From a virus: a stretch of DNA of 36,283 bases. Each line of letters opens with the position of its first letter. Position 1 is the stretch's first letter. Positions 4,719-31,345 of the stretch are shown one piece after another. The stretch lies in the IMG/VR virus record IMGVR_UViG_3300031521_000202, positions 1-36,283 of that record; one strand, given 5' to 3'. The notes below the pieces were generated by a model, which was given only the letters and a program-made list of their open reading frames with translations, was not told where the DNA came from and did no database searches. The position numbers were made by a program, and so were the translations under genes.

Positions 4719-5144
4719 TTATAAATTAAATTTAGTTGTTGACATATAAAGTTCAAGAGTTTCTTCTAATTCAGTTTTTTTTGTATTAAATATTTTTATA
4801 CTATGATTTTTAACAATATACCATTTATTATTAATCTTAAATTTATACTGCCATTTTGTTATAAATCCACCTGCAGAATATCTTGTCCAAACATCTGATA
4901 TTTCGCCATTTATATAAGTCTTATTACCATTATTATCAAATACTATCAATTCGATTATTTTACCAATTAATATTTTAGGAACCTCTTCCCTATAATAATA
5001 ACATCTAGTTTTTATATCTTTTTTTCTTAAATTAGTATCAGGATGTATTTTATTGAAATTGTCATTATATGTATTCCACATATCATCTAAATTTAGAAAA
5101 TAATATTCTTGTGAATTCTCAAATATTTTGAATGTTGTTATCAT
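4719..5144 (-). CDS. Head/tail-tagged array protein, 141 aa
   Basis: Starts with the array head MITTFKIFE and ends in T-K-F-N-L. The body has a beta-rich middle (GKIIELIVFDNNGNKTYINGE, later WQYKFKINNKWYIVKNH) and a C-terminal acidic helix (KKTELEETLELYM) before the tail. It is the last gene of the minus array, so its KFNL end is not needed to start another gene; that argues that the tail is selected as protein. Body function unknown. Confidence 0.7.
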   Translation of the reverse strand: MITTFKIFENSQEYYFLNLDDMWNTYNDNFNKIHPDTNLRKKDIKTRCYYYREEVPKILIGKIIELIVFDNNGNKTYINGEISDVWTRYSAGGFITKWQYKFKINNKWYIVKNHSIKIFNTKKTELEETLELYMSTTKFNL

Positions 5145-5479
5145 AAATTATATTTATTTACATATTCCCTTGATTCTACCTCGCCATCATATATATTTAC
5201 AGCATCCATAAATTTATAACCATTTTCGTCATACCATTTATTGCGCATTTTACCTTTGAACATCATCCAACCCCAATTATCATGTGAAGTGTAGCCAACA
5301 AATACATAATTAAAATCTTTACTGCTAAAAATCCGATCTAATCTATTTATAGATTCTGAATCACATTTTATTTCTTTTAATGATTTTATAAGTCTATCAT
5401 CAGTAGGAACTAACCAATATCGTTTAATTAGACCTGTACGACTTACATATTGTTCAAATATTTTAAATATTGTTATCAT
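5141..5479 (-). CDS. Tagged array protein, YWLIPTD family copy 1
   Basis: 112 residues with head MITIFKIFE and tail VNKYNL. The body is a paralogue of the genes at 5476-5814 and 8190-8534: YWLVPTDDR, a Cys-containing helix (SLKEIKC), FNYVFVGY, NWGWM, and NGYKFMDAVNI in the same order. No catalytic signature is known to me. It overlaps both neighbours by ATGA. Probably a tandem duplicate of the next gene. Confidence 0.7.
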   Translation of the reverse strand: MITIFKIFEQYVSRTGLIKRYWLVPTDDRLIKSLKEIKCDSESINRLDRIFSSKDFNYVFVGYTSHDNWGWMMFKGKMRNKWYDENGYKFMDAVNIYDGEVESREYVNKYNL

Positions 5480-5814
5480 AAATTATATTTATTTACAACT
5501 TCACTTAATTCTATCTCACCATCAAGTATATTTACAGTACCCATAAATTTATAACCATTTTTTTCAAAATATCTATCGACCATTTCGTCAGAATAAGAAT
5601 TCCATCCCCAAGGTTCTATATTATCAACAATACTATATCCAATAAAAACATATTTATACTTACGAGCTTTACATGAATCACCATTTAATATATTCATATA
5701 GTTTGAACTACATTTTATCTCTTTAAGTGATTCTCTAAACCTATCATCAGTAGGAATCAACCAATATAATGATTCATCGTGTGTTTTTGCTTCAAATCTT
5801 TTCAAATATTTCAT
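5476..5814 (-). CDS. Tagged array protein, YWLIPTD family copy 2
   Basis: 112 residues, head MKYLKRFE, tail VNKYNL. It has the same body order as its neighbour: YWLIPTDDRF, SLKEIKC, YKYVFIGY, WGWN, NGYKFMGTVNILDGE. The strong conservation of WLIPTD and GY(x)FMG/T-VNI over three diverged copies suggests a defined small fold under selection. Function unknown. Overlaps both neighbours by four bases. Confidence 0.7.
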   Translation of the reverse strand: MKYLKRFEAKTHDESLYWLIPTDDRFRESLKEIKCSSNYMNILNGDSCKARKYKYVFIGYSIVDNIEPWGWNSYSDEMVDRYFEKNGYKFMGTVNILDGEIELSEVVNKYNL

Positions 5815-6128
5815 ATATTGTATTTATTTGTTACTAATATCTCTTCTAATTCTTCTTTATACTTTGAAAAATGAGCAATTTCATATTTACCCATTCTTCG
5901 GCAATTTGTAAAATCTCTATCGTCTTCATCACTAAACCAATCTTTCAATTCATATGGCACATTTTCATACTTAATCAAATATTCATACATTCTGATTTTA
6001 TCATGTTCAACAATAATACCAATATTATTATTTAAAAAATTAGTTATTGATTTACTATTCTCATAACAAATAACATAATCACCAAGTTCTGGCTTTAATT
6101 CTTCAAATATTTTGAATGTTGTTATCAT
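5811..6128 (-). CDS. Tagged array protein with SH3-like body
   Basis: 105 residues, head MITTFKIFE, tail TNKYNI. The body GDYVICYEN, NNIGIIVEHDK, YLIKYENVP reads like a small SH3/KOW-type beta barrel. The C-terminal stretch EIAHFSKYKEELEEIL resembles that of the 40-residue gene at 6876-6998 (EILYFSKNKEELELKL), so the conserved tail module is about 20-25 residues long and not just the last four. The tyrosine of KYNI is coded TAC here, not TAT. Confidence 0.7.
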   Translation of the reverse strand: MITTFKIFEELKPELGDYVICYENSKSITNFLNNNIGIIVEHDKIRMYEYLIKYENVPYELKDWFSDEDDRDFTNCRRMGKYEIAHFSKYKEELEEILVTNKYNI

Positions 6129-6879
6129 TATTGTTAATTATCATTTTCTTATCTTTACACATAGCAACTAATCTTTCCTTATTTTTCTTATCACTTTTCT
6201 TCTCATGTAAAAAATTATCAGTAAATCTTATTTCTTGAACATATTTTATTGGTAATATATTTGTATGTATTTGTACTTCAGCATATTTATCATAAAATCG
6301 TTCTGGTATAAACATTCTACCACGACTAGTATTATGCCATTTTTCAGGATTTTTATGATTCAAATTATTCAAAATATATTCTGATTCTTTAATATATTCA
6401 TTATCATCTTTTAATATAGTAGAATATATTTTAGATATTTCTTTAGAATTATAAATTTTAATATTTTCTATTAAACTATCTAAAAGTGTTAATGTCACTT
6501 TAAAATTTTCAAAAATAGACGGTTTGAAATAAACCATCACTGGTCCATGCCCAGTTTCATATCCAGAATCATTATACCAATCTGGTGTGCAAAATATTAA
6601 ATCTTCAGTACCAAAATTCTTACTATCTAATTCTGCTCTTTCATTCCACCAAGAATCATTAGAATTTAAGCCTTTATGCTTGATTAAATCTTCATCTAAT
6701 TTATCAATATGGTTTTTTAACTCATTTCTACTCATTAAAAACCCATTTTCCAACATAGAAATAGCTGATTCATAAGATGAAAAATGTCTAACTAATGGAT
6801 ATTTTTGTGTAGAATTTGTGATTCGCGAATCACAAATTTTTATGTTTGGTGTTCTAAATGTATCAAATTTTCTTATCAT
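6103..6879 (-). CDS. ADP-ribosyltransferase-like protein with array head
   Basis: 258 residues, head MIRKFDTF. The body pattern is that of ART-fold enzymes: H32 in VRHFSSYESAISMLENGFLMSR (His, then the ENGFL-S-R turn), a central strand GPVMVYFKP, and a late Glu201 in YAEVQIHTNILP followed by KYVQEIRF, like the C-terminal Glu strand of DarT-type and related enzymes. NAD+ would be the substrate; the target is unknown. The stop lies inside the coding sequence of the next gene (26-base overlap), and it lacks the KYNI end. Family assignment is by pattern only. Confidence 0.5.
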   Translation of the reverse strand: MIRKFDTFRTPNIKICDSRITNSTQKYPLVRHFSSYESAISMLENGFLMSRNELKNHIDKLDEDLIKHKGLNSNDSWWNERAELDSKNFGTEDLIFCTPDWYNDSGYETGHGPVMVYFKPSIFENFKVTLTLLDSLIENIKIYNSKEISKIYSTILKDDNEYIKESEYILNNLNHKNPEKWHNTSRGRMFIPERFYDKYAEVQIHTNILPIKYVQEIRFTDNFLHEKKSDKKNKERLVAMCKDKKMIINNNDNNIQNI

Positions 6880-6998
6880 ATATTAAATTTTTTTATTTGT
6901 AATTTCAATTCTAATTCTTCCTTATTTTTAGAAAAATATAATATTTCGTTTAATAATACATCTTCAATAATATTTTCAAATGTTTTTATATATTTCAT
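6876..6998 (-). CDS. Minimal 40-residue head-plus-tail protein
   Basis: Start ATG at 6998 overlaps the upstream stop (ATGA) and its own TGA overlaps the next ATG. The 40 residues are the head MKYIKTFE, a short helical middle, the module EILYFSKNKEELELKL and the tail KKFNI. There is no room for a globular domain. Its preservation between two ATGA junctions indicates a translated gene. It is the smallest array member, and suggests head and tail are the functional parts, or that it is the residue of a deletion within a larger member such as that at 5811-6128. Confidence 0.65.
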   Translation of the reverse strand: MKYIKTFENIIEDVLLNEILYFSKNKEELELKLQIKKFNI

Positions 6999-7252
6999 AA
7001 ATTATATTTATTATTTATTAATAATTTATCTGCTTCTTCTTGTGATATTTTTTTATATACAGGTTCTATTAACTTGAAATTTCTTTCAACATTTCTATCA
7101 TCATCAAAATATGCTTTCTCTTTAGCACTATCAATAGAGGTAATTTGATAAGGATGGTTTTTTCTTATAAATTTCCCCCAATCATTAAAAAATATTATAT
7201 AATCACCCATATTAAGTTGTTTACTATTTTCAAAAGTTTTTATATATCTCAT
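6995..7252 (-). CDS. Tagged array protein with SH3-like body
   Basis: 85 residues, head MRYIKTFE, tail INNKYNL. The body begins MGDYIIFFNDWGKFIRKNHPYQITSID, which fits the GDY(I/V)-type small beta barrel seen in other array members, and ends in an acidic helix (KISQEEADKLL) before the tail. Its ATG overlaps the stop of the glycosyltransferase-like gene. Function unknown. Confidence 0.7.
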   Translation of the reverse strand: MRYIKTFENSKQLNMGDYIIFFNDWGKFIRKNHPYQITSIDSAKEKAYFDDDRNVERNFKLIEPVYKKISQEEADKLLINNKYNL

Positions 7253-8193
7253 TGCAATTCCTCTATTATTTGATGAAAACTCTTACTATTTTTCAATTTA
7301 TTAAGCAAAATACTATCAAATTTATTATTTTGATTAACTCTTTTTAAATATGACTCAGTATCTTCGTGATACCAAGTATCAAAATCTAAATTAATAAACA
7401 ATTCTTTATGATTACAATTCATCAATGACATAATTGCTTCTTCATAGTATAAAGTTTTATCTTCATTAGTTATTTTATCTATATATTGTCTAAATATTTT
7501 AATAATTTTATTCATCACATCTTTTTTACCACCAAATAACCCAGCAATTACATGTCGTGATGAATTATAGTTCTTATAATGTTTAGGATCTACGGTATTT
7601 GCATAAAAAAACTTAGAATTTTCTTTTGTTATCACTATACATTTATCCTCACATTTTTTCACTAAATTTTTTAAAAAATTATTATTAAATAATGGTGAAT
7701 TGAAACCAATCTTATTATTATCATAATTCAAGTGCTTTTTTGGAATTAAACCATCAAATGATAATCCAGCATCAATCCAAAAATAATAATCATATGTCAT
7801 ATCTTCTAAAGTAGGCCATATAAACTTCATATACTGTATTTCAAAGCATCTTTGTGATTTTTTAATATCATTAGCATCTTTATATTTATTTATCAAATCT
7901 TTGAAATTATTATTCTCCAAATCAAATATTTTTATCTTTAATTGATTATTATTAACATTATTTTCATTATAAAAGAAATCACACATTTTTTCATATTCTA
8001 TACTTGATGTATAGCACACAAAATCCGCATCAGTCATCTTTAATAATGATAATAAACTATATTTATAATGATCTTCTCTATCATTTCTACCACCAAATTG
8101 TGTTCCGTGTAAATTAGAATAAATACAAGTTATAAACTTAACTTTATTTTTTATTTGTGTATCTGACATAAAATTTTCAAATTTTCTAATCAT
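7249..8193 (-). CDS. WlaTC/HtrL-like glycosyltransferase-type protein with array head
   Basis: 314 residues, head MIRKFENF. The body matches the HtrL/YibB-WlaTC family: FITCIYSNLHGTQFGGR (20-36), YKYSLLSLL, DFVCYTS (57-62), a Glu/Arg stretch CFEIQYMKFIWP, and YYFWIDAGLS (136-145), where the Asp is the likely metal/nucleotide-sugar site. In bacteria such genes sit in surface-polysaccharide loci; the donor here is unknown. It lacks KYNI and ends IIEELQ, its TGA overlapping the next ATG. A tagged sugar transferase within the array suggests host-surface or virion modification. Confidence 0.6.
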   Translation of the reverse strand: MIRKFENFMSDTQIKNKVKFITCIYSNLHGTQFGGRNDREDHYKYSLLSLLKMTDADFVCYTSSIEYEKMCDFFYNENNVNNNQLKIKIFDLENNNFKDLINKYKDANDIKKSQRCFEIQYMKFIWPTLEDMTYDYYFWIDAGLSFDGLIPKKHLNYDNNKIGFNSPLFNNNFLKNLVKKCEDKCIVITKENSKFFYANTVDPKHYKNYNSSRHVIAGLFGGKKDVMNKIIKIFRQYIDKITNEDKTLYYEEAIMSLMNCNHKELFINLDFDTWYHEDTESYLKRVNQNNKFDSILLNKLKNSKSFHQIIEELQ

Positions 8194-8534
8194 ATATTAT
8201 ATTTTTTTGATACAAATTCCCATTCTGGAATATTTATAGTGCCACCAAATATATAGTCATGATATTCATACCAATCGCTTTTTACTTCACCTTTATATGG
8301 ATTCCAGCCCCAACCTAAGCAAAAATCACTTTCTTTAAAACCAGCATCATATCCTACAAATATATAGCCAGTATCTTTATCTCTTACACTTAAAATTATT
8401 TTTCGATAATGTTCAGAACAATTAATTTTATTTAATGAATCTTCAAATCTTTCATCTGTTGGAATTAGCCAATATATTTTTAAAGGTTCTTCGCCTATTA
8501 TGTTTAATTCCTCAAACAATTTTAAATATTTCAT
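8190..8534 (-). CDS. Tagged array protein, YWLIPTD family copy 3
   Basis: 114 residues, head MKYLKLFEEL, tail SKKYNI. Third paralogue of the family at 5141-5814: YWLIPTDERF, SLNKINCSEHY, GYIFVGYDAG, LGWGWNPY, YIFGGTINIPEWE. It is separated from the other two by four unrelated genes, so the family was duplicated and then dispersed within the array. Function unknown. Confidence 0.7.
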   Translation of the reverse strand: MKYLKLFEELNIIGEEPLKIYWLIPTDERFEDSLNKINCSEHYRKIILSVRDKDTGYIFVGYDAGFKESDFCLGWGWNPYKGEVKSDWYEYHDYIFGGTINIPEWEFVSKKYNI

Positions 8535-9001
8535 ATATTAAATTTCTTTCCATATATTATATGCTCTACCTCTGGTATTGTTAATCTTTCAAGCATTCTA
8601 ATTAATTTTTTATCATTCATATATATAGGCATCTCTAATCTATCTAAAATATCATTTAATATTCTAATATATGTTGGTTTATATTCATTATAAAATTCTT
8701 TTACAGTCATAAATTTTATTTTATCAAATTCATTTTCGTTATAATAATGTTTCCAAGTATTATTATAAATAAGGTTCTCTTCACCACTTACATATTGATT
8801 AAATTGAATCATATCTTGACCTTTTACACTCATATGAATATCATCACCATAATCTATATTTTTAGCTATTTTAACTATATCAACAAAAATAATTTGAAAT
8901 TTTATATCACTAATAAAATATTTAGACGATGGTATATTAATAAATAATTTACCTTTATAATCATCAAAGTTATGACTTTCAAATTTTTTAATATATTTCA
9001 T
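8531..9001 (-). CDS. Tagged array protein, FDDYK family copy 1
   Basis: 156 residues, head MKYIKKFE, tail GKKFNI. Paralogue of the next upstream gene: HNFDDYKGKLFI, then QIIFVDIV, an acidic region, and KIKFMTVKEFYNEYKPTYIRIL. The shared MTVKEFYN-Y helix is the best family mark. Probably a soluble mixed alpha/beta protein; no catalytic motif seen. The two copies are adjacent and overlap by ATGA. Confidence 0.7.
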   Translation of the reverse strand: MKYIKKFESHNFDDYKGKLFINIPSSKYFISDIKFQIIFVDIVKIAKNIDYGDDIHMSVKGQDMIQFNQYVSGEENLIYNNTWKHYYNENEFDKIKFMTVKEFYNEYKPTYIRILNDILDRLEMPIYMNDKKLIRMLERLTIPEVEHIIYGKKFNI

Positions 9002-9723
9002 ATATTAAATTTATTTATTGTTTTAAATAATTCAAAATCTTCTACTGTTAATTTTTTTATAAATTTATCCGCATTTTCTAATGTTAAAATATATTCATAA
9101 AATGCGAAAGCGTTCAGAAAATGTAATTTACCATCCTTCATCTTTTGACCATATTCAATCAAAAGTGATTGAATATATTCTAATTCTTCAATTTTAGTAT
9201 TCTTTCTTACTTTTACTTGTAGCCATTGATTCACAAATTCCACATTTAATATTATATTAGAAATAGTTAATCTTTCAGTTGTTTTAATAAAAAAGGATGC
9301 ATCATTTTTATCAATATAAACCCAACCAGGCTTACCTAGTTTATCATTTGAAATTTTATCAAATCCTTCTACTATTTTTTTAACATAGTTATTAGAAAAT
9401 AGTCTTGTAAATAATCCTTCTTCTAATATTCTAATATATAAACTTTCGTATTTATTATAAAATTCTTTTACTGTCATAAAATTTATATTATAAAATTCAT
9501 CTTTTGAATAAAGTCTATCACAAGTTGTAGCATAATTCAGACTATATTTACCATTATCTTGTTTAAATGTAATCACATTGTTACCGTTTATTCTATATTC
9601 ATCATGATCAATATCAATATTATCAACAAAAATAATTTGAAGCTCACTTTTAAGAAAAACTATAAATATTTTATCTTTATAGTCATCAAAATTCTGATTT
9701 TCAAATTTTTTAATATATTTCAT
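8998..9723 (-). CDS. Tagged array protein, FDDYK family copy 2, with extra C-terminal region
   Basis: 241 residues, head MKYIKKFE, tail INKFNI. Residues 1-100 repeat the neighbour's plan (QNFDDYKDKIFI, QIIFVDNI, NINFMTVKEFYNKYESLYIRIL). About 115 additional residues follow, including WVYIDKNDASFFIKT and a helix-rich C-terminal part, before the same tail. The size difference with head and tail retained shows that sequence has been gained or lost between the conserved ends. Confidence 0.7.
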   Translation of the reverse strand: MKYIKKFENQNFDDYKDKIFIVFLKSELQIIFVDNIDIDHDEYRINGNNVITFKQDNGKYSLNYATTCDRLYSKDEFYNINFMTVKEFYNKYESLYIRILEEGLFTRLFSNNYVKKIVEGFDKISNDKLGKPGWVYIDKNDASFFIKTTERLTISNIILNVEFVNQWLQVKVRKNTKIEELEYIQSLLIEYGQKMKDGKLHFLNAFAFYEYILTLENADKFIKKLTVEDFELFKTINKFNI

Positions 9724-9986
9724 ATGTTAAATTTATTTATATTCGACTCCAATTCATATTGTTTTATTTCTTCTGGAGTCAACTTTCGCTCAATCATACC
9801 TACTGTAGTCCACTCCCATTCGCCTGTTGAAAATAATACTTTATATGGAATCCTATCATTATCAATATATATAATTTTTCCATATTTATGAATAAAATTT
9901 AAATGATATTGTGTTTTATCATCTATTTTCAATAAAACATAATCACCAACTTTATGATACGTTTCAAATAATTTTAAATGTTTCAT
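9720..9986 (-). CDS. Tagged array protein with SH3-like body; first gene of the left array
   Basis: 88 residues, head MKHLKLFE, tail INKFNI. The body KVGDYVLLKIDDKTQYHLNF, KYGKIIYIDNDRIPYKVLFSTGEWEW is a convincing small SH3/KOW-like barrel with a glycine-marked turn. The Asn of the tail is coded AAC. As the first gene of the 9986-4719 minus operon it follows a TATATATAG element at 9990-9998 (minus strand), about 10 bases from the ATG. Confidence 0.7.
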   Translation of the reverse strand: MKHLKLFETYHKVGDYVLLKIDDKTQYHLNFIHKYGKIIYIDNDRIPYKVLFSTGEWEWTTVGMIERKLTPEEIKQYELESNINKFNI

Positions 9987-10075
9987 AAACTATATATAAA
10001 AAACAAAGAGATAATTTTTTAAATAGATAAAACAAATAAAAAAGAATTTAATATATAACAAACATTAAATAATAT
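9987..10075. promoter_or_regulatory. Divergent intergenic region with TATATATA elements
   Basis: The 89 bases separate the minus array from infC. On the minus strand TTTTTTATATATAG sits just upstream of ATG 9986; on the plus strand TTTAATATATAAC (10047-10059) sits about 17 bases upstream of ATG 10076. The same element recurs before other first genes (12725, 18376, 22059, 35576), so it is a candidate phage promoter. No TAnnTTTG element is clear here. Confidence 0.4.
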
Positions 10076-10606
10076 ATGAATAAGAAAAAAGACGAAGTAC
10101 AAAACAGAATAAACAACTTAATTAGAGTTTCTAATGTTAGATTAATTGGTGATAATATAGAACCAGGAGTCTATGAAATAAGAACCGCACTAAGAATTGC
10201 AAGAGAAATGGAATTAGATTTAGTAGAAATTTCAGTTGCAAATGATGTAAGTATCTGCAAAGTTATTGATTATGGAAAATTTCTTTATGATAAAAAGAAA
10301 AAAGAAAAAGACCAACAAAAAAAACAAAAACAAAATCAAGTTGAAGTAAAAGAAATCAGAATGACTCCAAATACTGATGATCACGATTTTAATTTCAAAT
10401 TAAATCATGCTAAAAACTTTTTAACCAATAACGATAAAGTTATGATTTCAGTTTTTTTTAAAGGCCGCGAAATTACTTATAAAGAACAAGGCGAAATTAT
10501 TTTATTAAGATTTTCACAAGAATTAAAAGGATTAGGAACACCTGAATATTTACCAAAATTAGAAGGTAAACGAATGTCAATGATGATTAAACCAATAAAA
10601 AAATGA
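10076..10606 (+). CDS. infC: Translation initiation factor IF-3
   Basis: 176 residues, essentially full length. N-domain: INNLIRVSNVRLIGDNIEPGVYEIRTALRIA followed by LDLVEIS and CKVIDYGKFLYD; a Lys/Gln linker (about 75-92); C-domain: VKEIRMTPNTDDHDFNFKLNHAKNFL, VFFKGREITYKEQGE and PKLEGKRMSMMIKP. IF-3 binds the 30S subunit, blocks premature 50S joining and checks the start codon. The TDDHDF and FKGR-I-KEQGE wording looks like Bacteroidota IF-3. It starts with ATG, whereas E. coli infC uses a rare AUU that makes it self-limiting. First gene of a short plus operon. Confidence 0.95.
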   Translation: MNKKKDEVQNRINNLIRVSNVRLIGDNIEPGVYEIRTALRIAREMELDLVEISVANDVSICKVIDYGKFLYDKKKKEKDQQKKQKQNQVEVKEIRMTPNTDDHDFNFKLNHAKNFLTNNDKVMISVFFKGREITYKEQGEIILLRFSQELKGLGTPEYLPKLEGKRMSMMIKPIKK

Positions 10607-10701
10607 TAGAATGTTTTGATAATGGTGAACAAGAATCATTCGAAGAAGATGATTCTTTTGATAATGGCGAAAGCGAAAATGAAAGCAATGAATCAAATTA
10701 A
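10603..10701 (+). CDS. Acidic 32-residue peptide coupled to IF-3
   Basis: ATG 10603 overlaps the infC stop (ATGA), and the frame runs to TAA 10699-10701, overlapping the next start at 10688 by 14 bases. The peptide is extremely acidic and disordered (FEEDDSFDNGESENESNESN), with one Cys. The tight coupling on both sides supports translation; no function is known. It might bind a basic partner such as IF-3's linker, or be a decayed gene. Confidence 0.45.
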   Translation: MIECFDNGEQESFEEDDSFDNGESENESNESN

Positions 10702-10924
10702 AATTGGTAGTAAAGTAAAACTTATTGAGAATATAGAAATGTTTCATAGAACATATAAAGTCGGTGAAATATTTACTGTTTATGGAGTTAGTTATCGTGG
10801 CTGGGATTTAATTAATGATAAAAATGAAAGAATTGATGAAACATATTTTTCTTCTCATAAATATGAATTATATGACATTAAAGAAGAAAGAAAGAAAAAA
10901 CTTCAAAAAATAAATGAAATTTAA
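10688..10924 (+). CDS. Small SH3-like protein with KIN tail
   Basis: 78 residues from ATG 10688; the open frame extends to 10616 but the upstream part lies in the acidic peptide gene and reads as out-of-frame Met/Lys-rich sequence. The body is a likely small beta barrel (IGSKVKLIENI, YKVGEIFTVYGV, RGWDLINDK). It ends with the second conserved tail, DIKEERKKKLQKINEI. The last codons overlap the next ATG at 10914. Confidence 0.65.
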   Translation: MNQIKIGSKVKLIENIEMFHRTYKVGEIFTVYGVSYRGWDLINDKNERIDETYFSSHKYELYDIKEERKKKLQKINEI

Positions 10925-11204
10925 TAAAAATCTTGGTATATTATTTGATAAATATAATTTTGATTATATTTATATAAATCCAAAACAACTTGAATATTTG
11001 GAGTGGGATTTCATACCAGAAGAATATTTAGTAGATTCTAAAAATGAGCCAGGTTATTTAGGCACTATAACATTACAAAATGATCATATAAAAGTATATT
11101 ACGATAAAAAAATCATACCCGGAGATATGATTTTTAAATATAAAGATATTAAAGAAGAAAGAAAAATTAAATTATTTGATATAATTAATAATAGTATTAA
11201 CTAG
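10914..11204 (+). CDS. Small protein with KIN-type tail
   Basis: 96 residues. The body is rich in Tyr and Ile (YNFDYIYINPKQLEYLEWDFIPEEYL) with a beta pattern (GTITLQNDHIKVYYDKK). It carries the tail helix DIKEERKIKLFDII, a variant of the KIN tail. The first bases overlap the preceding gene. It converges with, and overlaps by 33 bases, the minus gene ending at 11172. Function unknown. Confidence 0.65.
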   Translation: MKFNKNLGILFDKYNFDYIYINPKQLEYLEWDFIPEEYLVDSKNEPGYLGTITLQNDHIKVYYDKKIIPGDMIFKYKDIKEERKIKLFDIINNSIN

Positions 11205-12164
11205 CACTTTCATTTCTTCTTCATTTCTTGCTAATTTGGAAATATGTGGGAATGTCCACATTGAAAAATCAGAAAAAGACCATTCATCATCTGTCATCCA
11301 AACAAATATAGGTTTATTCATAAAAGATTGCGTTTGTAATTCACCATAAGTGCCTGCAGCTGCAGCGGTATTTAATCCTAAAAATACCATGTCAGAAAGA
11401 TTAACCAAATGCTCATCCCCTGGCTCAATAGTACTAGATAACGTCCTTCTAATATTTGTCATAGTTGGCTCATATTCTTCTGGTTCTGTTTCATCGCCAA
11501 AAGTTTTATATTGTATAGCAGCTTGTGCAAAATCTTTATCTTTAGTTCTATCAACTTCTTTTCTTACTGGATTTAACACCAATGGTTTATTATACATTTT
11601 TTTAATTTTTTCTGGATTTTCAATAAACATATCTAAATAAATACCATCAACAACTCTTTTTGGATCAACTTTACCAAATTCTTTTAAATTAATTTCTGGT
11701 AATCCAGTTTTTTTACCTGGATATTTTTCAAATTCATGTTCTACTATAATTCTCCATCCAGCGCCAACATCCTTTGCTTTATCCATACCACCAGCCAAAT
11801 AAACTGAAATTAAATCAAATCCTGGATAATTTTTAAATATATCATCAAGAGAAGTTAAATCAAATATATTCATTTTATCAATTAAATTAACATAAAATTT
11901 ATTTTTTCTATTAATTAAATACTTCCATATTCTTTGATCAATACTTTTTTGAAATTTTATTTTCAATTTATCAATAATATCCATGAAAAATCCTTCTCTT
12001 AAATTTTCACTCGTTTCAACTAATTCTTCTAATGAATTTCGTAATTCTATAATATCTTCAGTTGGTACATTTTTTAATAAATCTAAAACTTCAAAAACAT
12101 CATTTGACTCGTTTGTTTCAATGCTTTCTTTTATAAATCTTCCATAATTTGTAATAATTTTCAT
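11172..12164 (-). CDS. Nucleoside deoxyribosyltransferase-like (SLOG/NDT fold) protein
   Basis: 330 residues. The N-terminus MKIITNYGRFIKESIE resembles a phage capsid-targeting leader more than the short array head. Residues 20-110 are acidic, then basic and helical. The C-terminal two-thirds has the NDT-type Rossmann fold: FDLISVYLAGGMDKAKDVGAGWR, LVLNPVRKEV, LSDMVFLGLN and AAAGTYGELQTQSFMNKPIFVW, where the GTYGE Glu corresponds to the family's catalytic position. Members transfer or hydrolyse deoxyribosyl bonds of nucleosides or nucleotides. Substrate unknown. No KYNI tail. Lies 3 bases after the next array gene. Confidence 0.65.
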   Translation of the reverse strand: MKIITNYGRFIKESIETNESNDVFEVLDLLKNVPTEDIIELRNSLEELVETSENLREGFFMDIIDKLKIKFQKSIDQRIWKYLINRKNKFYVNLIDKMNIFDLTSLDDIFKNYPGFDLISVYLAGGMDKAKDVGAGWRIIVEHEFEKYPGKKTGLPEINLKEFGKVDPKRVVDGIYLDMFIENPEKIKKMYNKPLVLNPVRKEVDRTKDKDFAQAAIQYKTFGDETEPEEYEPTMTNIRRTLSSTIEPGDEHLVNLSDMVFLGLNTAAAAGTYGELQTQSFMNKPIFVWMTDDEWSFSDFSMWTFPHISKLARNEEEMKVLVNTIINYIK

Positions 12165-12167
12165 ATT

Positions 12168-12446
12168 TTATAAATTGTATTTTGTGGTATTTAATAATAA
12201 CTCAATAGTTTTTTCATCTAACGTTTCTTTTGTTACTTTTTTGATAAAAAAATTCTGTTTCTTATATTTTCTTTTATACTTCATGTAATAGTTAGCAACA
12301 TCTTTAAAATCAAATGGATTAACATTATTAAAATCACTATTACTAGGATTAAATTCATATTCGTCACCATTACTATCTGTTATCCAGAGTTCATAAGTAA
12401 TATCTAAATCAATCTCATCAAAATTCTCAAATAATTTTATTTTCAT
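12168..12446 (-). CDS. Tagged array protein, MKIKLFENF pair, downstream copy
   Basis: 92 residues, head MKIKLFENF, tail NTTKYNL. Paralogue of the adjacent upstream gene: both read F-[DN]-EID after the head, a D-NGD turn, an acidic stretch with NPFDF/YDPFS, then a Tyr/Lys helix (YYMKYKRKYKKQNFFIKK / IFMKYEKTHPNLFIEK). The tail tyrosine is TAC and the stop is TAA, separated by 3 bases from the next ATG, so the tail persists without ATGA overlap. Confidence 0.7.
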   Translation of the reverse strand: MKIKLFENFDEIDLDITYELWITDSNGDEYEFNPSNSDFNNVNPFDFKDVANYYMKYKRKYKKQNFFIKKVTKETLDEKTIELLLNTTKYNL

Positions 12447-12449
12447 AAA

Positions 12450-12725
12450 TTATATATTATATTTGTTTGATAATAGTTTAAGTTTAATCTCATTAATAAT
12501 TTCTTTATCTACTATTTCAGTAGTCATTTTTTCTATAAATAAATTTGGATGTGTTTTTTCATATTTCATAAAAATTACAACTGAATCAACTAAACTAAAA
12601 GGATCATATTCATCTGATTCATCTTCACTAAGGTCAAGACCAATTTTATCACCATTTTTATCTAAATCACTAACTCCATACATAACATCAATTTCATTAA
12701 AATTTTCAAATAATTTTATTTTCAT
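12450..12725 (-). CDS. Tagged array protein, MKIKLFENF pair, upstream copy
   Basis: 91 residues, head MKIKLFENF, tail LSNKYNI. It shares the plan of the next gene, with a very acidic middle (LDLSEDESDEYDPF). The stop is TAA followed by TTT before the next ATG. The start follows AATATATAGAG on the minus strand, which is both the end of the homing endonuclease gene and a TATATATA-type element. Function unknown. Confidence 0.7.
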   Translation of the reverse strand: MKIKLFENFNEIDVMYGVSDLDKNGDKIGLDLSEDESDEYDPFSLVDSVVIFMKYEKTHPNLFIEKMTTEIVDKEIINEIKLKLLSNKYNI

Positions 12726-12728
12726 ACT

Positions 12729-14309
12729 CTATATATTAAATTTATAAATTAAATTTCCTGAATCATAAATATTTAAAATTCGTTCATTTTTTTCATTTTT
12801 CTTATATCTAACAAAATCTTTTATAAAATAACAATTAGGCTCTGTTTTTTCTTGAATTTTAAATCCTAATTTACTAAAAAATTCTTCTTGATTTGATCTA
12901 TCACTAACTGCAATTATTTCTTCTGGTTGATGTTTACTAATAAAATAATCAAATATTTTTATTTCGCTATCTATCACATTTATATTTAATTTATCACAAA
13001 ATCTTAATAATTCATATTTATTTTTATTTTTAGAAAATATCATCAAACTGATAAGTTCATTTTCATTAAATAAACCAATTTTTATTTTAGATTCTATAAA
13101 TCCTTTAATATGATTTTTATCTAAAAATTCTATAATCAATTTAATATCATCAACTTCTTTAATTTCACAAAAATTAGAATCTATTTTAATATTATTACTC
13201 ATCTTATTTGAAATAATAGATTTAATTATTTCTTGTTTAAATAACCAGTCATCCTCCCAAATATGTATCAACTCTATACTATTTGATTCACATAATTCAG
13301 TCTTATTCAAATGATAATTTTTATCTTTATGCTCATCAGAATGCCAATATAATCCATTATACTCAAATGCCAACTTTAATTCAGGAATATAAATATCTAA
13401 TTCATATGGTTTTATTATATTTCTACTATTTAATAATATTTCACCATTATAATTCTCTCTAATAAAATTTAACAATATTATTTCATTACCAGATATATTT
13501 GTGCTTACAGGATTACATATTGTGCAAATTGGAACATTATACCTTTTTCTATTATAATATAAGTGCGGTTCTATAGTAAAATTATGATATTTATTTTGAT
13601 CACACTTTACAATAAAAATAGGCTTATCATAATCTATTTCAATAATATCTTTATTTTTTTCTAAAATTTGATTTATTTTTGTTATTTTTACTTTGTTTAC
13701 CATTTCATTCTTTATATCATCCCTTTGAAATTGGCATTTAACACCATATTTTTCAATCATAGTGTTAAATGTTTTTTCTGCAGTTTTTTCATTTATCAGC
13801 GAATTAATATTTCCATATCGTTCCAAATTTGTTTTATTTATTTTGTCTCTAAATTTCTTTAATTGTGCTGGATGTTCAACGCCATATCTTTCTAAATTAG
13901 TATTTGCTATTTTTTTCTTTATTTTATCTGATTGACATTGATGTTCAAATCCAAATTTATTCAACATCGTTTTTTTACGTTTAGCATTAAATTCTTCATT
14001 TTTTATCAACGCATCAACACCATATTTTTCTAATAATGTATTTTTTCTATTTTTATCATTACATTTATAACACAAATATTCATTATCTACTGAATTTTTT
14101 AAATATTTATTATATGCAAAATAATGACTCTCCCTTTCAGAGCCACATTTATCACATTTTATCAAAACTTTTTCGTGTGAGGTTTTAGGTAGTTGATCAA
14201 TAGGAATAGTAATAATATCTTTTACTTTAATAATATTATATCCTAAATTTCTATAATAATGAATATTTCCACCTTGTATAGAAATTGAAACTTTTGTTGT
14301 TAATAACAT
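12729..14309 (-). CDS. Vsr-fold homing endonuclease with Lys-Tyr-Gly repeats
   Basis: 526 residues. N-terminal part: zinc-ribbon-like CDKCG and CYKC, then tandem repeats of the form T-x-LE-[KR]-[YF]-G-V-[DE] (LLEKYGVDAL, MLNKFGFEHQ, NLERYGVEHPAQ, NLERYGNIN, MIEKYGVKCQ), as in phage homing endonucleases. A CTIC knuckle precedes the nuclease core YELDIYIPELKLAFEYNGLYWHSD with HL-KTELCE and IHIWEDDW (Vsr/EDxHD-like). A C-terminal domain (KIKIGLFNENELISLMIFSK) follows. It probably cleaves an intron- or intein-less target gene and is selfish. It ends IYKFNI, matching the array tail; this may be chance. Own TATATATA element upstream. Confidence 0.75.
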   Translation of the reverse strand: MLLTTKVSISIQGGNIHYYRNLGYNIIKVKDIITIPIDQLPKTSHEKVLIKCDKCGSERESHYFAYNKYLKNSVDNEYLCYKCNDKNRKNTLLEKYGVDALIKNEEFNAKRKKTMLNKFGFEHQCQSDKIKKKIANTNLERYGVEHPAQLKKFRDKINKTNLERYGNINSLINEKTAEKTFNTMIEKYGVKCQFQRDDIKNEMVNKVKITKINQILEKNKDIIEIDYDKPIFIVKCDQNKYHNFTIEPHLYYNRKRYNVPICTICNPVSTNISGNEIILLNFIRENYNGEILLNSRNIIKPYELDIYIPELKLAFEYNGLYWHSDEHKDKNYHLNKTELCESNSIELIHIWEDDWLFKQEIIKSIISNKMSNNIKIDSNFCEIKEVDDIKLIIEFLDKNHIKGFIESKIKIGLFNENELISLMIFSKNKNKYELLRFCDKLNINVIDSEIKIFDYFISKHQPEEIIAVSDRSNQEEFFSKLGFKIQEKTEPNCYFIKDFVRYKKNEKNERILNIYDSGNLIYKFNI

Positions 14310-14378
14310 ATCTTTTTTATATGTATATATAAAAAATGTTTGGTCCTGCTTGAAACTTTTTTAATTATACAGGTATTT

Positions 14379-14633
14379 TTAATTGTTATGCTTTGAGTAA
14401 TAACGAGATACGGTATAATTAAACCAATTTCTGGCAATTAAATTTGATTCTATTGTATATATTAAAAGAGATTTTATTTTATTTAAAAAATCATTTGTCA
14501 TTTTATTTTGAAACATTACATTAGAAAATGATGTTCTAAGCAATCCTTCTTCATAATCAAATCCACTTTCAATCTTATCATTCATATGTTTAAGTTCATA
14601 TAACTCTTTTATTTGTAAATCTTTTTCTATCAT
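14379..14633 (-). CDS. Small helical protein, array region
   Basis: 84 residues beginning MIEKDLQIKELYELKHM, without the usual head, and ending YYSKHNN, at best a degenerate tail. It is almost entirely helical with mixed charge. It begins one base after the stop of the tagged gene at 14635 and is followed by about 70 bases containing the promoter-like region of the homing endonuclease. It may have been the array end before that endonuclease gene was inserted. Function unknown. Confidence 0.6.
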   Translation of the reverse strand: MIEKDLQIKELYELKHMNDKIESGFDYEEGLLRTSFSNVMFQNKMTNDFLNKIKSLLIYTIESNLIARNWFNYTVSRYYSKHNN

Positions 14634-14634
14634 T

Positions 14635-14988
14635 TTAAATATTATATTTTTTTGAATTCATTCTAACTTCTATCCAATTTTTTAATTCTATATTTTCCAA
14701 ATATTTTACTTTTTCATAAATAATATGAGTCATATCATAATCACATTCTAAATTATTATAACACACAAATATATCATCTATTTTATTTAAATTTATAATA
14801 TCCCAATCTTCTTCAATTTCTACTAATACATTTTCGTGACTTTTAAAAAATGAATATATGTAATTTATCATAAAATTACATATGTCTTTTTCTGAATCAA
14901 ATATATAATTTTCATCAAAATTTTCATGAATAGTAAGAAAATAACAATATTTATATTCTAAATTTTCATTGAATTTTTGTATTTTCAT
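14635..14988 (-). CDS. Tagged array protein, acidic
   Basis: 117 residues, head variant MKIQKFNEN, tail NSKKYNI with Ile coded ATT, unlike the ATA used elsewhere. The body is very acidic and aromatic (YIFDSEKDICNFMINYIYSFF, LVEIEEDWDIINLNKIDDIFVCYN). No known motif. Overlaps the upstream stop by four bases and is followed immediately by the next gene. Function unknown. Confidence 0.7.
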   Translation of the reverse strand: MKIQKFNENLEYKYCYFLTIHENFDENYIFDSEKDICNFMINYIYSFFKSHENVLVEIEEDWDIINLNKIDDIFVCYNNLECDYDMTHIIYEKVKYLENIELKNWIEVRMNSKKYNI

Positions 14989-15260
14989 ATATTATATTTA
15001 TTTGCTTCTATACCTATAATTGTTTTAATATCTTTAGATTCTAAATATAAATTATAAAGATAAACCTGCATTGTATTTTTTATAATATAAGCTTGATCCT
15101 CATCTAAATCATCTCCTTTAACAACATCATAATACACAGATTCTAATGTTTCTTCATTTTTTTTATCTATATATTTTGAAACAATTAATTTAGTATATTC
15201 AGTAGCAATATCATCATCATACTCAAATTTATATTCTTCAAATTTTTTTATATTTTTCAT
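14985..15260 (-). CDS. Tagged array protein, helical
   Basis: 91 residues, head MKNIKKFEE, tail EANKYNI. The body is an acidic helical bundle pattern (DIATEYTKLIVSKYIDK, LESVYYDVVKGDDLDEDQAYIIKN, YLYNLYLESKD). No recognisable domain. ATGA overlaps with both neighbours. Function unknown. Confidence 0.7.
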   Translation of the reverse strand: MKNIKKFEEYKFEYDDDIATEYTKLIVSKYIDKKNEETLESVYYDVVKGDDLDEDQAYIIKNTMQVYLYNLYLESKDIKTIIGIEANKYNI

Positions 15261-15721
15261 ATATTATATTTTTCTTTTCTATTTTCTATTTCATATCTTT
15301 CAATAATATCTTTATATGTTTCTAAATCTTTTTTATTCATTTTTCTAATTATATTAGAATACGGTTCTGTGATCCATTCTTTATCTTTAAAACTACGCAT
15401 TCCAATAAACCAATCACAAATATCACCATTACATATCATGGGTGTAGGCTTGTGGGTATGATAATCTTTTATTATTAAATAATCACCATCCTTATATGAT
15501 GGCATTTTTTTAACTATATCACCTTCTTTAATGGTAAATTGTTCATCGTCCATCTCACTATCTGCATTCCATACAAGATAATATATATCATCATATTTTA
15601 TTGATATTTCACTTATTATTACTAAACGATTATTTAATTTAGTATTGTTAACAATAACAAAATCATCAAGATGATATTTATTTGTCTTATGTTTTTCATA
15701 TAATTTAAATTTTGTTATCAT
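15257..15721 (-). CDS. Tagged array protein with SH3-like body
   Basis: 154 residues, head MITKFKLYE, tail RKEKYNI. Two possible small barrel repeats: YHLDDFVIVNNTKLNNRLVIISEISIKYDDIYYLVWN and a second one starting YKDGDYLIIKDYHTHKPTPMIC. The C-terminal helix (KMNKKDLETYKDIIERYE) precedes the tail as in other members. Function unknown; the DYLI/DFVI strands relate it to the GDYV group. Confidence 0.7.
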   Translation of the reverse strand: MITKFKLYEKHKTNKYHLDDFVIVNNTKLNNRLVIISEISIKYDDIYYLVWNADSEMDDEQFTIKEGDIVKKMPSYKDGDYLIIKDYHTHKPTPMICNGDICDWFIGMRSFKDKEWITEPYSNIIRKMNKKDLETYKDIIERYEIENRKEKYNI

Positions 15722-16104
15722 ATATTATATTTTTTAGTATTTTTTAAAATAATTAGATCTTTAAATATTTTACTATATGCTAATAAATTAACATCTATTA
15801 AACATTCTACCATATCTTTATCTTCTGAAAAACTTCTAATAACAATTTTTGCTGAACTATCAAATTTTTTAAAATAATCAGATACACTTTGCATTATTTT
15901 TAATTCATCTTCATCAATAGCCATAAAATAAAAACTTGATCTTATAAATTTTTTTACACCAGATATACCAAGTTTAGCTTCATATGATCCCATATTTCCT
16001 AAATCATCATCAGGATAAAATTTATTAATAACAAGTTCTATAAACTCACTAAGTTCCTTATCATCTTTAGATGCTATTTTTTCGTTGAATTTTTCAATTT
16101 TCAT
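15718..16104 (-). CDS. Tagged array protein
   Basis: 128 residues, head MKIEKFNEK, tail NTKKYNI. Acidic N-terminal helix (KDDKELSEFIELVINKFYPDDD), a glycine-containing turn (NMGSYEAKLGISGVKKF), then a mixed region with IVIRSFSEDKDMVECLIDVNLL. No motif known to me. Overlaps both neighbours by ATGA. Function unknown. Confidence 0.7.
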   Translation of the reverse strand: MKIEKFNEKIASKDDKELSEFIELVINKFYPDDDLGNMGSYEAKLGISGVKKFIRSSFYFMAIDEDELKIMQSVSDYFKKFDSSAKIVIRSFSEDKDMVECLIDVNLLAYSKIFKDLIILKNTKKYNI

Positions 16105-16574
16105 AAATTATATTTATTTATATCTTTTTTTATTTTTTTGTTTTCTATCTTTTGTAACTCTTTTTTATATTCTTCCTCATCTTTTTCCTGTTCCTTTTTT
16201 CTAAATATTCTATATATTTTATAAAAATATTTTTTTAAATATTCATAATCATCTTCTGTGATATCAATAGAATAATTAGAATTAGCATTATTAGCATCAT
16301 GGTAATTAAAACATATATATGGAATTTTATAGCCGTTATCTCTTGTTTCACAACCAATATATATTTTACTAAAATTCAATCCATATTTAAACCCAACACT
16401 AGATTCGTTTGTACTATTTATACCAGGATTAATATTATCAAAATTATCTTCAATAAATTTTATTGTATCAATCACAACATCAGATAATTTTGGTTTTTTA
16501 TCACCATAATTAACAACAACATTCTTATCAGTCACATCAGTTATCCAATTATTATATTCTTTTAAATACTTCAT
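16101..16574 (-). CDS. Tagged array protein
   Basis: 157 residues, head variant MKYLKEYNN, tail DINKYNL. The middle looks globular (SVGFKYGLNFSKIYIGCETRDNGYKIPYICFNYHD), followed by a basic/acidic coiled-coil-like helix (YRIFRKKEQEKDEEEYKKEL) leading into the tail. A small folded domain on a helical stalk is plausible. Function unknown. Confidence 0.7.
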   Translation of the reverse strand: MKYLKEYNNWITDVTDKNVVVNYGDKKPKLSDVVIDTIKFIEDNFDNINPGINSTNESSVGFKYGLNFSKIYIGCETRDNGYKIPYICFNYHDANNANSNYSIDITEDDYEYLKKYFYKIYRIFRKKEQEKDEEEYKKELQKIENKKIKKDINKYNL

Positions 16575-16855
16575 AAATTATATTTTATTATATTTTCATA
16601 TTCAATTTTTTCTTCATCAGTCAAAATTTCATCTCTAATCCATGATTGTGATAATTCTTTACTAGTTAATGGTTTAAATCTTGGAATTTCTCCTTTAATA
16701 TTATTTAATTCCGCACTTAATTCACCGCAAACTCTCCAATATTTAGAATTTGTTTTTCTAGTAAATTCATTATAATCATAAATAAAATTATCAATTTTTT
16801 TTAAAATATCAATTTTCATTTTATCATATTCAGCACGTGTTTTTATGATTCCCAT
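16571..16855 (-). CDS. Tail-only array protein
   Basis: 94 residues ending NIIKYNL, but the N-terminus MGIIKTRAEYDKMK is not a standard head. This is the one clear case of the tail without the head, useful for separating their roles. The body is helical (DILKKIDNFIYDYNEFTRK, then a Trp/Cys/Gly segment WRVCGELSAEL). Starts with a one-base overlap (TAATG) to the upstream gene. Confidence 0.65.
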   Translation of the reverse strand: MGIIKTRAEYDKMKIDILKKIDNFIYDYNEFTRKTNSKYWRVCGELSAELNNIKGEIPRFKPLTSKELSQSWIRDEILTDEEKIEYENIIKYNL

Positions 16856-17169
16856 TATACTTTTAACTTTTCTTTATTTTTATTTACATGTTTTAATAAT
16901 TCTGTAAAAGAATTAAATTTTTCAATAGTTTTTTTACCATTTATATTTATTTCTTTTTTATAAAAAAAAGCACCTTCATCTTTTATTTTTTTAACTGCTA
17001 TATCAACAACAGAATCCAATGAATGATAATATTTTGGCGATTTAGAACCAATATTTTTTTTGTAGAAATTAAGTTTTTCTAATTCTTTTATTTCATCATC
17101 TGTCCAATATGTTGAATTAGTAATTTTTTTATACTTTGAAAAAATTTCATATTTTTTTAAATATTTCAT
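16855..17169 (-). CDS. Head-only array protein
   Basis: 104 residues with a head variant MKYLKKYEIF but ending KNKEKLKV, without KYNI: the converse of its downstream neighbour. The body has WTDDEIKELEKLNFYKKNIG, a Ser/Lys segment, and a C-terminal TELLKHVNKNKEKL helix. It is possible that a recombination exchanged ends between these two adjacent genes. Function unknown. Confidence 0.65.
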   Translation of the reverse strand: MKYLKKYEIFSKYKKITNSTYWTDDEIKELEKLNFYKKNIGSKSPKYYHSLDSVVDIAVKKIKDEGAFFYKKEININGKKTIEKFNSFTELLKHVNKNKEKLKV

Positions 17170-17178
17170 ACTATTTAT

Positions 17179-17700
17179 TTATTTTTTCTTATCTGACCAA
17201 ATATAATAGCCATTATACTCGTTCTCATATGTCATCTCACCTAATGTTGAAATAACATTTAATGTTGTATCAAAAGTTATAGTCTGTTGAAATGTAAATT
17301 TAACCGCGTCTTTATTAATATAAGTCAATGGTTTTAATTTTATGCCAAAAACATCTAATGAATCCGGAATTTCACGATAAAACTCTGATAATGCATAAGT
17401 CACTAAATTTTCTCTAATATTTTCAATATCTTCTTTATCAAAAATAAATGATCTAAATACTACTCTCTCTGTACCAAGAATATCACCAGTCAAATCATTA
17501 ACTTTGTATTGATGTTTCTTTTTATCAATCAAGTCAATATATTGTTCATAACTTTTATAATACTCAACAAGAATTTTAGTATATTTTGGCCCTGCCAATT
17601 TAATATTATAGAAAAATTCATCTAATTTAACATTAGGTATTTGAAATTCTTTTAGTGACGACCACTCTGTAAATTTTGTTATATTTAATATTTCATTCAT
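17179..17700 (-). CDS. Hypothetical protein
   Basis: 173 residues without head or tail (starts MNEILNITKFTEW, ends WSDKKK). It appears globular: LKEFQIPNVKLDEFFYNIKL, then KYKVND-like linker, GTERVVFRSFIFDKEDI and a beta-rich C-terminus (FQQTITFDTTLNVISTLGEMTYENEY). No family recognised. It lies nine bases upstream of the next gene in the same operon. Confidence 0.65.
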   Translation of the reverse strand: MNEILNITKFTEWSSLKEFQIPNVKLDEFFYNIKLAGPKYTKILVEYYKSYEQYIDLIDKKKHQYKVNDLTGDILGTERVVFRSFIFDKEDIENIRENLVTYALSEFYREIPDSLDVFGIKLKPLTYINKDAVKFTFQQTITFDTTLNVISTLGEMTYENEYNGYYIWSDKKK

Positions 17701-17704
17701 ATTC

Positions 17705-18376
17705 TTATTTTTTTATTATTTTTAATAAATTACTATATTCGTCATCTTCTAATTTAATTCTAATTTCATTTTGATAATTTTTGCTAAAAATGAGTATTTC
17801 TTTTTCATTTTTTAACACTCTTATATTAGTAGTGCCGCCATCAGCATTATTAACATTCATTACAAATCTATCAGAAAAATCTGAAATTGGTACATTGTTC
17901 ATGTTCTTCAATCCTGTTAATAAACTTGTTATACTTTTTCTATCTCTATCGTTCTTTGATTTATTAATTTGTTTTTTAGCTACCCATAATAAAAATTCAT
18001 AAACTAAATATGCACAAACTAAAAACTTACCAACTTCAGCTAATAAACTTTCATTATATGAATTAAATTCTTTAATATGTTTCATTTTATTTTCTTGTTT
18101 ATTTTTATATTCTTTATCCTTATCATTGGCAATAAAATCATCTAAAATCTCATTTAGTATTTCTCTCACCAACTTTTCATATTCTTTTTCATCTTTAACT
18201 AAATTAACACCCTTATTATTTATATCGCTTAAAAGATCAGAAAATCTCTTACTATTCTTATAATATTTCCTAAGTGATACAGGTTTAGCACCTTTATTTA
18301 TATAAAAAGTAATAATAGGGTGCATCGCCTTAAATATATCAGATTTTGCTTGTTTTATAATTCCTAAATTTTCCAT
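17705..18376 (-). CDS. Hypothetical protein, possible fusion with an internal array head
   Basis: 223 residues. The N-terminal 97 are helical and basic/acidic; at residue 98 (ATG at 18085) the sequence MKHIKEFNSYNESLL reads exactly like an array head, followed by a hydrophobic segment (KFLVCAYLVYEFLLWVA) and a soluble C-terminal part. Either a second, internally started gene (17705-18085, 126 residues) is present, or an array gene has fused in frame to an upstream gene. First gene of the right minus operon, with AATATATACA about 8 bases upstream. Confidence 0.65.
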   Translation of the reverse strand: MENLGIIKQAKSDIFKAMHPIITFYINKGAKPVSLRKYYKNSKRFSDLLSDINNKGVNLVKDEKEYEKLVREILNEILDDFIANDKDKEYKNKQENKMKHIKEFNSYNESLLAEVGKFLVCAYLVYEFLLWVAKKQINKSKNDRDRKSITSLLTGLKNMNNVPISDFSDRFVMNVNNADGGTTNIRVLKNEKEILIFSKNYQNEIRIKLEDDEYSNLLKIIKK

Positions 18377-18429: not shown

Positions 18430-18528
18430 GTGATAACTAAATTTAAAATATTTGAATCAGTAAACGAAGGCGAGCCTCAAGTTGGTGATTATGTTTTATG
18501 TAAAAATGTTAGCAATAAAAAAATATAA
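18430..18528 (+). pseudogene. Orphan array head with truncated GDYV body
   Basis: From GTG 18430 the frame reads head MITKFKIFE, then SVNEGEPQVGDYVLCKN and stops at TAA 18526-18528 after 32 residues. It corresponds to the first third of a GDYV-type array protein, but on the opposite strand from the array and without a tail. It is best explained as a truncated remnant of a duplicated array gene, though a real short peptide from a GTG start is possible. Confidence 0.5.
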
Positions 18529-22019: not shown

Positions 22020-22030
22020 AATATTTACAT

Positions 22031-22040
22031 TTATATATAG
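22031..22040 (+). promoter_or_regulatory. TATATATAG element before the endonuclease
   Basis: TTATATATAG lies 18 bases upstream of ATG 22059, in the 39-base gap after the polymerase fragment. It matches the element before other first genes and may let the endonuclease and polymerase C-half be transcribed separately. Confidence 0.3.
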
Positions 22041-22058
22041 AGATAAAAGTATCACCAT

Positions 22059-31176: not shown

Positions 31177-31345
31177 AATAGAAGATTTTATTGATTTAAC
31201 AAAACTTGAATCAATGTCAGAAAGAGAAAGAGAAATATATGATAGTGTATTTCAATTAAACAAAAATAAACTTCAAGAATTAACTGATGTACTTGAATTA
31301 TTAGAAGAATTTAAAAACAAACACAATAGTGAAAGTAAAAATTAA
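31160..31345 (+). CDS. Small helical protein
   Basis: 61 residues, highly charged and helical, with a likely coiled coil (MSEREREIYDSVFQLNKNKLQELTDVLELLEEF split by short breaks). It lacks the KIN tail and ends NSESKN. It lies between two tailed genes and overlaps both. Function unknown. Confidence 0.6.
   Translation: MKKEVKIEDFIDLTKLESMSEREREIYDSVFQLNKNKLQELTDVLELLEEFKNKHNSESKN

Follow-up and report, generated by a model that had tools for sequence, protein, structure and literature searches.

The window analysed here is a 36,283-base viral fragment (IMG/VR record IMGVR_UViG_3300031521_000202). It carries runs of small minus-strand genes whose products share two short ends: an N-terminal head, MKYIKKFE in its main form, and a C-terminal tail, K-[FY]-N-[IL], placed at the very last residues. 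All 19 open reading frames (ORFs) listed in an initial annotation are present at their coordinates and end in K-[YF]-N-[IL] (Table 1). The head, seen there on most genes, was identified in 17, which start with MKY[IL]KxFE or a clear variant (MITTFKIFE, MKIKLFEN, MKIEKFNE, MKYLKEYN); the genes ending at 16571 and 12729 have no clear head. The codon details given for the tails are correct as well, with TAC at 5811 and 12168, AAC at 9720 and ATT at 14635. The tail is indeed kept without an ATGA junction at 4719 and 12168, but these are not the only such genes. Five were found: 4719, 12168, 12450 and 14635 stop at TAA, and 12729 at TAG.

Table 1. Genes of the window that carry the shared head and tail, related features, and small proteins with a second C-terminal motif (tag B)
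Feature	Coordinates	Strand	Details
Tagged gene, 141 aa	4719-5144	-	head MITTFKIFE, tail KFNL, stop TAA, last in run
Tagged gene, 112 aa	5141-5479	-	YWLIPTDD family, tail KYNL, ATGA overlap
Tagged gene, 112 aa	5476-5814	-	YWLIPTDD family, tail KYNL, ATGA overlap
Tagged gene, 105 aa	5811-6128	-	SH3-like barrel (AlphaFold), head 1-9 with pLDDT (predicted local distance difference test) <50, tail KYNI
ORF, 40 aa	6876-6998	-	scarcely more than head and tail, tail KFNI
Tagged gene, 85 aa	6995-7252	-	SH3-like family, tail KYNL
Tagged gene, 114 aa	8190-8534	-	YWLIPTDD family, tail KYNI
Tagged gene, 156 aa	8531-9001	-	tail KFNI
Tagged gene, 241 aa	8998-9723	-	paralogue of 8531-9001, tail KFNI
Tagged gene, 88 aa	9720-9986	-	first in run, tail KFNI (AAC codon)
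Late-type promoter-like motif	9991-10003	-	TTTTTTATATATA, 4 nt upstream of start codon of first tagged gene
Tagged gene, 92 aa	12168-12446	-	head MKIKLFENF, tail KYNL, TAA
Tagged gene, 91 aa	12450-12725	-	paralogue of 12168-12446, tail KYNI, TAA
Homing endonuclease	12729-14309	-	ends KFNI, no head, probably coincidental member
Tagged gene, 117 aa	14635-14988	-	tail KYNI (ATT codon, TAA)
Tagged gene, 91 aa	14985-15260	-	tail KYNI
Tagged gene, 154 aa	15257-15721	-	tail KYNI
Tagged gene, 128 aa	15718-16104	-	tail KYNI
Tagged gene, 157 aa	16101-16574	-	tail KYNL
Gene, 94 aa	16571-16855	-	tail KYNL, no clear head
Head without tail	16855-17169	-	head MKYLKKYE, ends LKV
Head without tail	35043-35576	-	head MKFITLFENF
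Tag B or variant, headless small protein	10616-10924
Tag B or variant, headless small protein	10914-11204
Tag B or variant, headless small protein	24219-24458
Tag B or variant, headless small protein	24819-25103
Tag B or variant, headless small protein	25090-25326
Tag B or variant, headless small protein	25310-25555
Tag B or variant, headless small protein	30645-30917
Tag B or variant, headless small protein	30901-31176
Tag B or variant, headless small protein	31329-31577
Tag B or variant, headless small protein	33564-33779

The bodies between these ends had been described as unrelated, which is too strong a word inside the window. Here the genes at 5141, 5476 and 8190 form one family (YWLIPTDD, 37-50% identity), 8531/8998 and 12168/12450 are paralogue pairs, and 5811, 6995 and 9720 align as a single SH3-like family. 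The KFNI of the homing endonuclease at 12729 is probably a coincidence, since this protein has no head and its relatives end in a similar ...YDSGNL... stretch. In the 40-residue ORF at 6876-6998, the body has apparently been deleted between the two ends. Another short ORF (32 residues, MITKFKIFESVNEGEPQVGDYVLC..., 18430-18528) is the remnant of a tagged SH3-like gene, truncated by a stop.

Judged by its relatives, the window is a piece of a huge-phage clade, kin to phages of 462-735 kb. The helicase as sole query did not lead to close viral contigs, megablast of the interval against phage records gave no match, and neither did the YWLIPTDD protein against annotated phages. The YWLIPTDD family led to the first viral contigs, and a structural protein encoded there to further contigs and to named phages: the 735-kb phage LR756501, LR756502, LR756504, LR745206 and LR756500 and, more remotely, PAU, Tenacibaculum PTm1 and Chryseobacterium MA9V. 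Seven contigs (1543 C-termini), including the 330-kb G002 and the 256-kb G004, make up the set in which the tail was studied. As ORFs were called naively as the longest ones on incomplete contigs, all counts are approximate.

The two ends are not confined to one interval, as first described, but are found genome-wide. In G002, 103 of the 616 ORFs end in K[YF]N[ILMV], and 60 of 480 do so in G004. Over the seven contigs, 234 of the 1543 C-termini are K[FY]N[IL] versus ~0.5 expected from its frequency inside proteins (3.2e-4 per position), which excludes chance. Head and tail occur together in 187 genes, the head only in 30, the tail only in 63 and neither in 1263 (Fisher p ~1e-150). Both ends sit on ~15% of the ORFs of the clade, attached to many different folds. 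At the DNA level, the tail pattern was found 115 times in G002 versus 13 times in reversed controls. In 43 further related records (including LR75650x, PAU, PTm1 and MA9V-2), it did not clearly exceed control. The joint of a tail with the next head is repeated in some 45 viral contigs, whereas 257 Gb of bacterial and archaeal genomes gave 11 scattered single matches, at chance level. This distribution makes the tail a novelty of a single phage clade.

Head and tail are peptides kept by selection at the protein level, as had been proposed for the tail. Between G002 and G004, all 50 orthologues of tailed genes retain the tail (44 in its strict form, six with [NQ]FN[LM]); the median identity of their bodies is 61%. 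The Asn codon of the tail is identical in 33 cases and silently changed in 18, with no replacement (p ~3e-10), while the bodies show 891 silent versus 2134 replacing changes. For the Phe codon, 13 silent changes and seven F/Y swaps were counted, with no other replacement, and for the Lys codon one silent change and seven K/N or K/Q exchanges. At head positions 3 and 8, changes are mostly silent (11:3 and 7:2). The converse pattern, in which nucleotides are kept and the frame is not, was looked for in these relatives, and the reading as a protein tag withstood the comparison. Tails ahead of a TAA stop are also retained, as are those with no gene of the same direction in the next 30 nt (49 of 242).

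Where the tail overlaps the next start, its Asn codon puts C or T at position -3, at which Bacteroidota favour A (PMC6847099), and this speaks against a translation signal. A tail acting as a translation signal was ruled out by that position and by the silent and replacing counts; the same counts rule out a promoter (TATAAT inside AAATATAAT). The transfer-messenger RNA (tmRNA)/SmpB system puts a short C-terminal peptide on many proteins, but the tails of the clade are encoded in frame in each gene, which rules out a tmRNA-added tag. A phage SmpB is encoded at 31596-32036 (Pfam 6.7e-53), and no tmRNA was found within the window.

The tail comprises more than the last four residues: its logo, weighted by body family, reveals an acidic and hydrophobic, helix-like stretch followed by [ND]-[TAS]-[NK]-K-[FY]-N-[IL], with E/D at -14, -13 and -11 and L/I/F/Y at -12 and -10 (250 tailed genes in 102 body families, grouped by BLAST, a number that is an upper bound). 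The bodies include ankyrin repeats (11 of 100 tagged G002 proteins), leucine-rich repeats (LRR, in two) and an ExoX-like C-terminus (in one). Four PHROG families match a tagged protein of 273 residues, all ending near residue 260, so that the tail comes after the point at which the family itself ends; an internal Met is found directly after the head in this family. AlphaFold models of two unrelated bodies have a folded core, with a low-confidence head in both and a low-confidence tail in the second (8190-8534; residues 1-5, 7-13 and 110-114 with pLDDT <50). A fold search with the SH3-like model pointed to SH3/chromo-barrel-like folds, below significance (best E 0.097), and the second model gave no match.

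The head resembles a known signal. Phage T4 IPIII carries the capsid-targeting sequence MKTYQEFIAE, ten residues that provide entry into the prohead core. Its residues 4 and 7 are important for targeting and its residues 8 and 10 for processing (PMC9026906), and the bodies of T4 internal head proteins vary freely behind it (PMC3012670, PMC9026906). The logo of the tagged genes has I/L, a hydrophobic residue, at position 4 and F/Y at position 7, as in the T4 targeting determinants. Like IPI, IPII and IPIII, the tagged proteins thus combine a short head starting M1-K2, hydrophobic or aromatic at positions 4 and 7, with freely varying small bodies. Heads closely resembling that of T4 (MKTYQQFNEMS, MKNYNQYIKES, MKTFNQYNES) are present in the same gene set. 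A sequence fitting the prohead-protease site [LI]xE lies at the end of the head in variants (MIIKRFIQLNES, MLDKYLDFINEN, MKNYNQYIKES), not in the main form MKYIKKFE. In the 642-kb phage LR756502, a run of ~10 genes headed MKHLKKFNES (locus L048, 28541-36162) has no shared tail.

A related head is found on proteins of PAU: gp142, gp154, gp199 and gp270, four of its five annotated internal capsid proteins, and gp152, annotated as scaffolding, start with MK[STG][LI]xxLYE. As in the clade, one head is shared by diverse proteins, many of them clustered in PAU near the portal, protease and major capsid genes. However, PAU has no shared tail, far fewer such proteins, and a head that ends in the LYE cut-site motif. 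The major capsid protein of PAU is shortened by ~65 residues, from 585 to 520 (PMC5646251), the cut falling at ALME|N. Capsid proteins of huge phages carry HSINE|NAY, and the site predicted in the gp23-like major capsid protein of the clade is MNE|N.

T4-type capsid genes occur within the same clade, a further likeness to T4. Direct searches of the tail contigs with the gp23 and protease families gave weak matches only; the capsid genes were found later via the joint pattern, on two contigs (G057 and G058) that both also bear tagged genes. The major capsid protein of G058 is 72% identical to that of LR756501 (residues 202-583). An ORF of ~790 residues beside it is a putative protease/scaffold by its gene position and by protease matches in LR756501 and LR756502, not by a family match of its own. 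A tagged gene (MKVNRFNES...KYNL) lies between portal and protease/scaffold at 93065-93373 of G057.

The motif TTT[TA]TATATA lies 4-36 nt upstream of many start codons. It is present at 17/42 tagged operon starts and 57/307 starts of larger untagged genes, versus 0.8% of random windows; with 80-nt windows, 16 of 39 tagged operon starts carry it, versus 1.4% of random ones. Genes with the motif also include a neck-protein homologue, a head-tail adaptor and large virion-like proteins, and it is missing at the starts of primase, DNA polymerase, PhoH, topoisomerase, helicase, SSB and methyltransferase genes. We infer from these genes that the motif is a late promoter.

The tagged proteins would, with a probability of about 0.6, be head-packaged internal (cargo) proteins of a huge T4-related phage. 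The evidence favours a protein-level signal at both ends that serves sorting or docking, as had been suggested. The head would be the capsid-targeting sequence of the clade, a short flexible helix bringing the protein into the prohead core by analogy with T4. After late synthesis the proteins would be enclosed in the head, and their injection along with the DNA would deliver a helper or counter-defence set. The tail may fold as a short amphipathic helix with K-[FY]-N-[IL]-COOH at its end. Its most likely partner would be a component of the phage head common to these proteins (shell, core or portal), and it would act after the N-terminal head or together with it. This exact role, a second docking element of the same packaging pathway, is tentative, at somewhat less than even odds. 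One copy each of all tagged G002 proteins amounts to 1.6 MDa. This is small beside the ejection mass of >40 MDa given for SPN3US (PMC7411985), and counts in favour of packaging.

Several observations weigh against it. The [LI]xE rule of T4 cleavage is satisfied by some head variants but not by most heads (KKFE|N/S/E). The PAU protein gp70, annotated as an internal capsid protein, is without the head, the PAU labels being taken as deposited. T4-like-headed genes beside the capsid genes of the clade (MKNFKEFLEG, MKKTLNFDDFLNET) have no tail, and the late class of the promoter is read from its downstream genes. A packaging role of the tail is also without precedent, because the internal proteins of PAU are tailless and no tail has been described for T4.

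The initial annotation knew of no described system resembling this one. For the head this no longer stands, given the match to the T4 capsid-targeting sequence, but it does for the fixed tail, of which no description was found in the open-access literature. Compared with the internal proteins of T4, the clade has a conserved C-terminal tail, mostly heads without a [LI]xE site, and ~100 such proteins on one contig instead of a handful. Encapsulin cargo-loading peptides are likewise short, conserved and C-terminal on varied cargo, and dock inside an HK97-fold shell, but they have no head, belong to bacterial compartments and differ in sequence. In SPN3US and phiKZ, many different ejection proteins are packed in the head and injected, as might be the case here, but those have long propeptides and no shared short ends have been described (PMC5694885); in giant phages outside the clade, cutting of ejection proteins is not universal (PMC5694885). 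The known part would be the T4-type head, and the new part the conserved tail and the greatly expanded protein set.

A second C-terminal motif, tag B (R-K-x-K-L-x-K-[LI]-N), begins 9-20 residues before the C-terminus in 160 small-protein genes of 83 body families, some of which may be one, as many tag-B bodies look SH3-like. Inside proteins, it occurs 12 times in 270,000 residues. Its codons are at background, and the R and second K positions change silently only. It never occurs together with tag A, the head MKYIKKFE and tail KFNI (0 versus 26 expected, p 1e-13), and operons hold B only (79), A only (67) or, in two cases, both; together the tags cover about a quarter of the ORFs. The late-type motif precedes one of 30 tag-B operons, and the Bacteroidota-type TAnnTTTG nine of 30, versus 3/39 for tag A and 7.6% of random sequences, so that tag-B operons tend to host-type promoters. 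One tag-B family is homologous to Tad3, a Thoeris inhibitor. The Tad3-like homologues on G006, G001, G004 and G002 (L385-L388) are extended at the C-terminus, and the extension ends in tag B or a close variant of it. A two-tag address code is possible, though it is more doubtful than packaging: tag A proteins would be late and head-packaged, tag B proteins would stay in the infected cell, and new genes would join either set by gaining short ends.

The exclusiveness of tag B could also indicate a general intracellular addressing, in which the ends of the tagged proteins would route or dock them in the infected cell, at a shared hub, an adaptor, a membrane or an assembly site, and not enclose them in the virion. 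The tail being new to this clade and the ankyrin and LRR bodies, typical interaction modules, would fit. However, the head matches a known capsid-targeting signal common to annotated internal capsid proteins of PAU, and the promoter motif is common to tagged operons and virion genes. This would be the strongest alternative to head packaging, but an unlikely one.

Both ends might otherwise be removable packaging signals, the tail being a C-terminal propeptide cut off in the prohead. In T4, gp21 processes Alt at its two ends (PMC9026906), and Glu is enriched at -14, -13 and -11 of the tail. A search for a propeptide with a [LI]xE site gave no clear enrichment in the tail helix, and [LIM]xE is present there in 60 of 250 cases, hardly above body windows (21%), which renders such cleavage improbable.

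The ends could also be accidental translations of an element acting as DNA or RNA, either a joint for the recombination of cassettes or a translation or promoter signal serving the following gene. The tails do have an extra nucleotide bias: Asn is AAC in 49% of overlap tails and 34% of others, versus 12% background, and ATA is far above ATT, even before TAA or without an ATGA overlap. Tail and next head form a repeated joint that could promote cassette exchange, a possible source of both biases. The Asn counts, the tails kept before TAA or without a following gene and the unfavourable -3 position largely refute this as the main cause, and leave it very unlikely; such an element may add a second constraint on the ends. 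Descent of all tagged proteins from one ancestor, with ends kept and bodies diverged beyond recognition, can practically be dismissed: the small size of even the largest families, one of them SH3-like, would fit, but ankyrin, LRR and the 273-residue protein with its four PHROG families represent different folds, and in the predictions the low-confidence ends lie outside the folded bodies rather than within one shared domain.

Among the other genes of the window, 10076-10606 encodes the translation initiation factor IF-3 (Pfam IF3_C 9.6e-31, IF3_N 1.2e-21). A family B DNA polymerase with an intein is split over separate ORFs (21129-24222; N-half 21129-22019, C-half 23251-24222). The ORF between the halves is homing-endonuclease-like in appearance, with no Pfam match.

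Should packaging of the tagged proteins hold, a single virion would contain more than 100 different injected proteins that can be read directly from sequence. The injected proteome could then be listed for huge phages that are uncultured, with many candidates for counter-defence and take-over among it, and T4-related capsids would have in the tail a second and independent handle for packaging. The two-tag code, if true, would represent a protein-addressing system of general use, for which no counterpart has been described in phages, and two exclusive tags would make protein addressing in infected cells testable.

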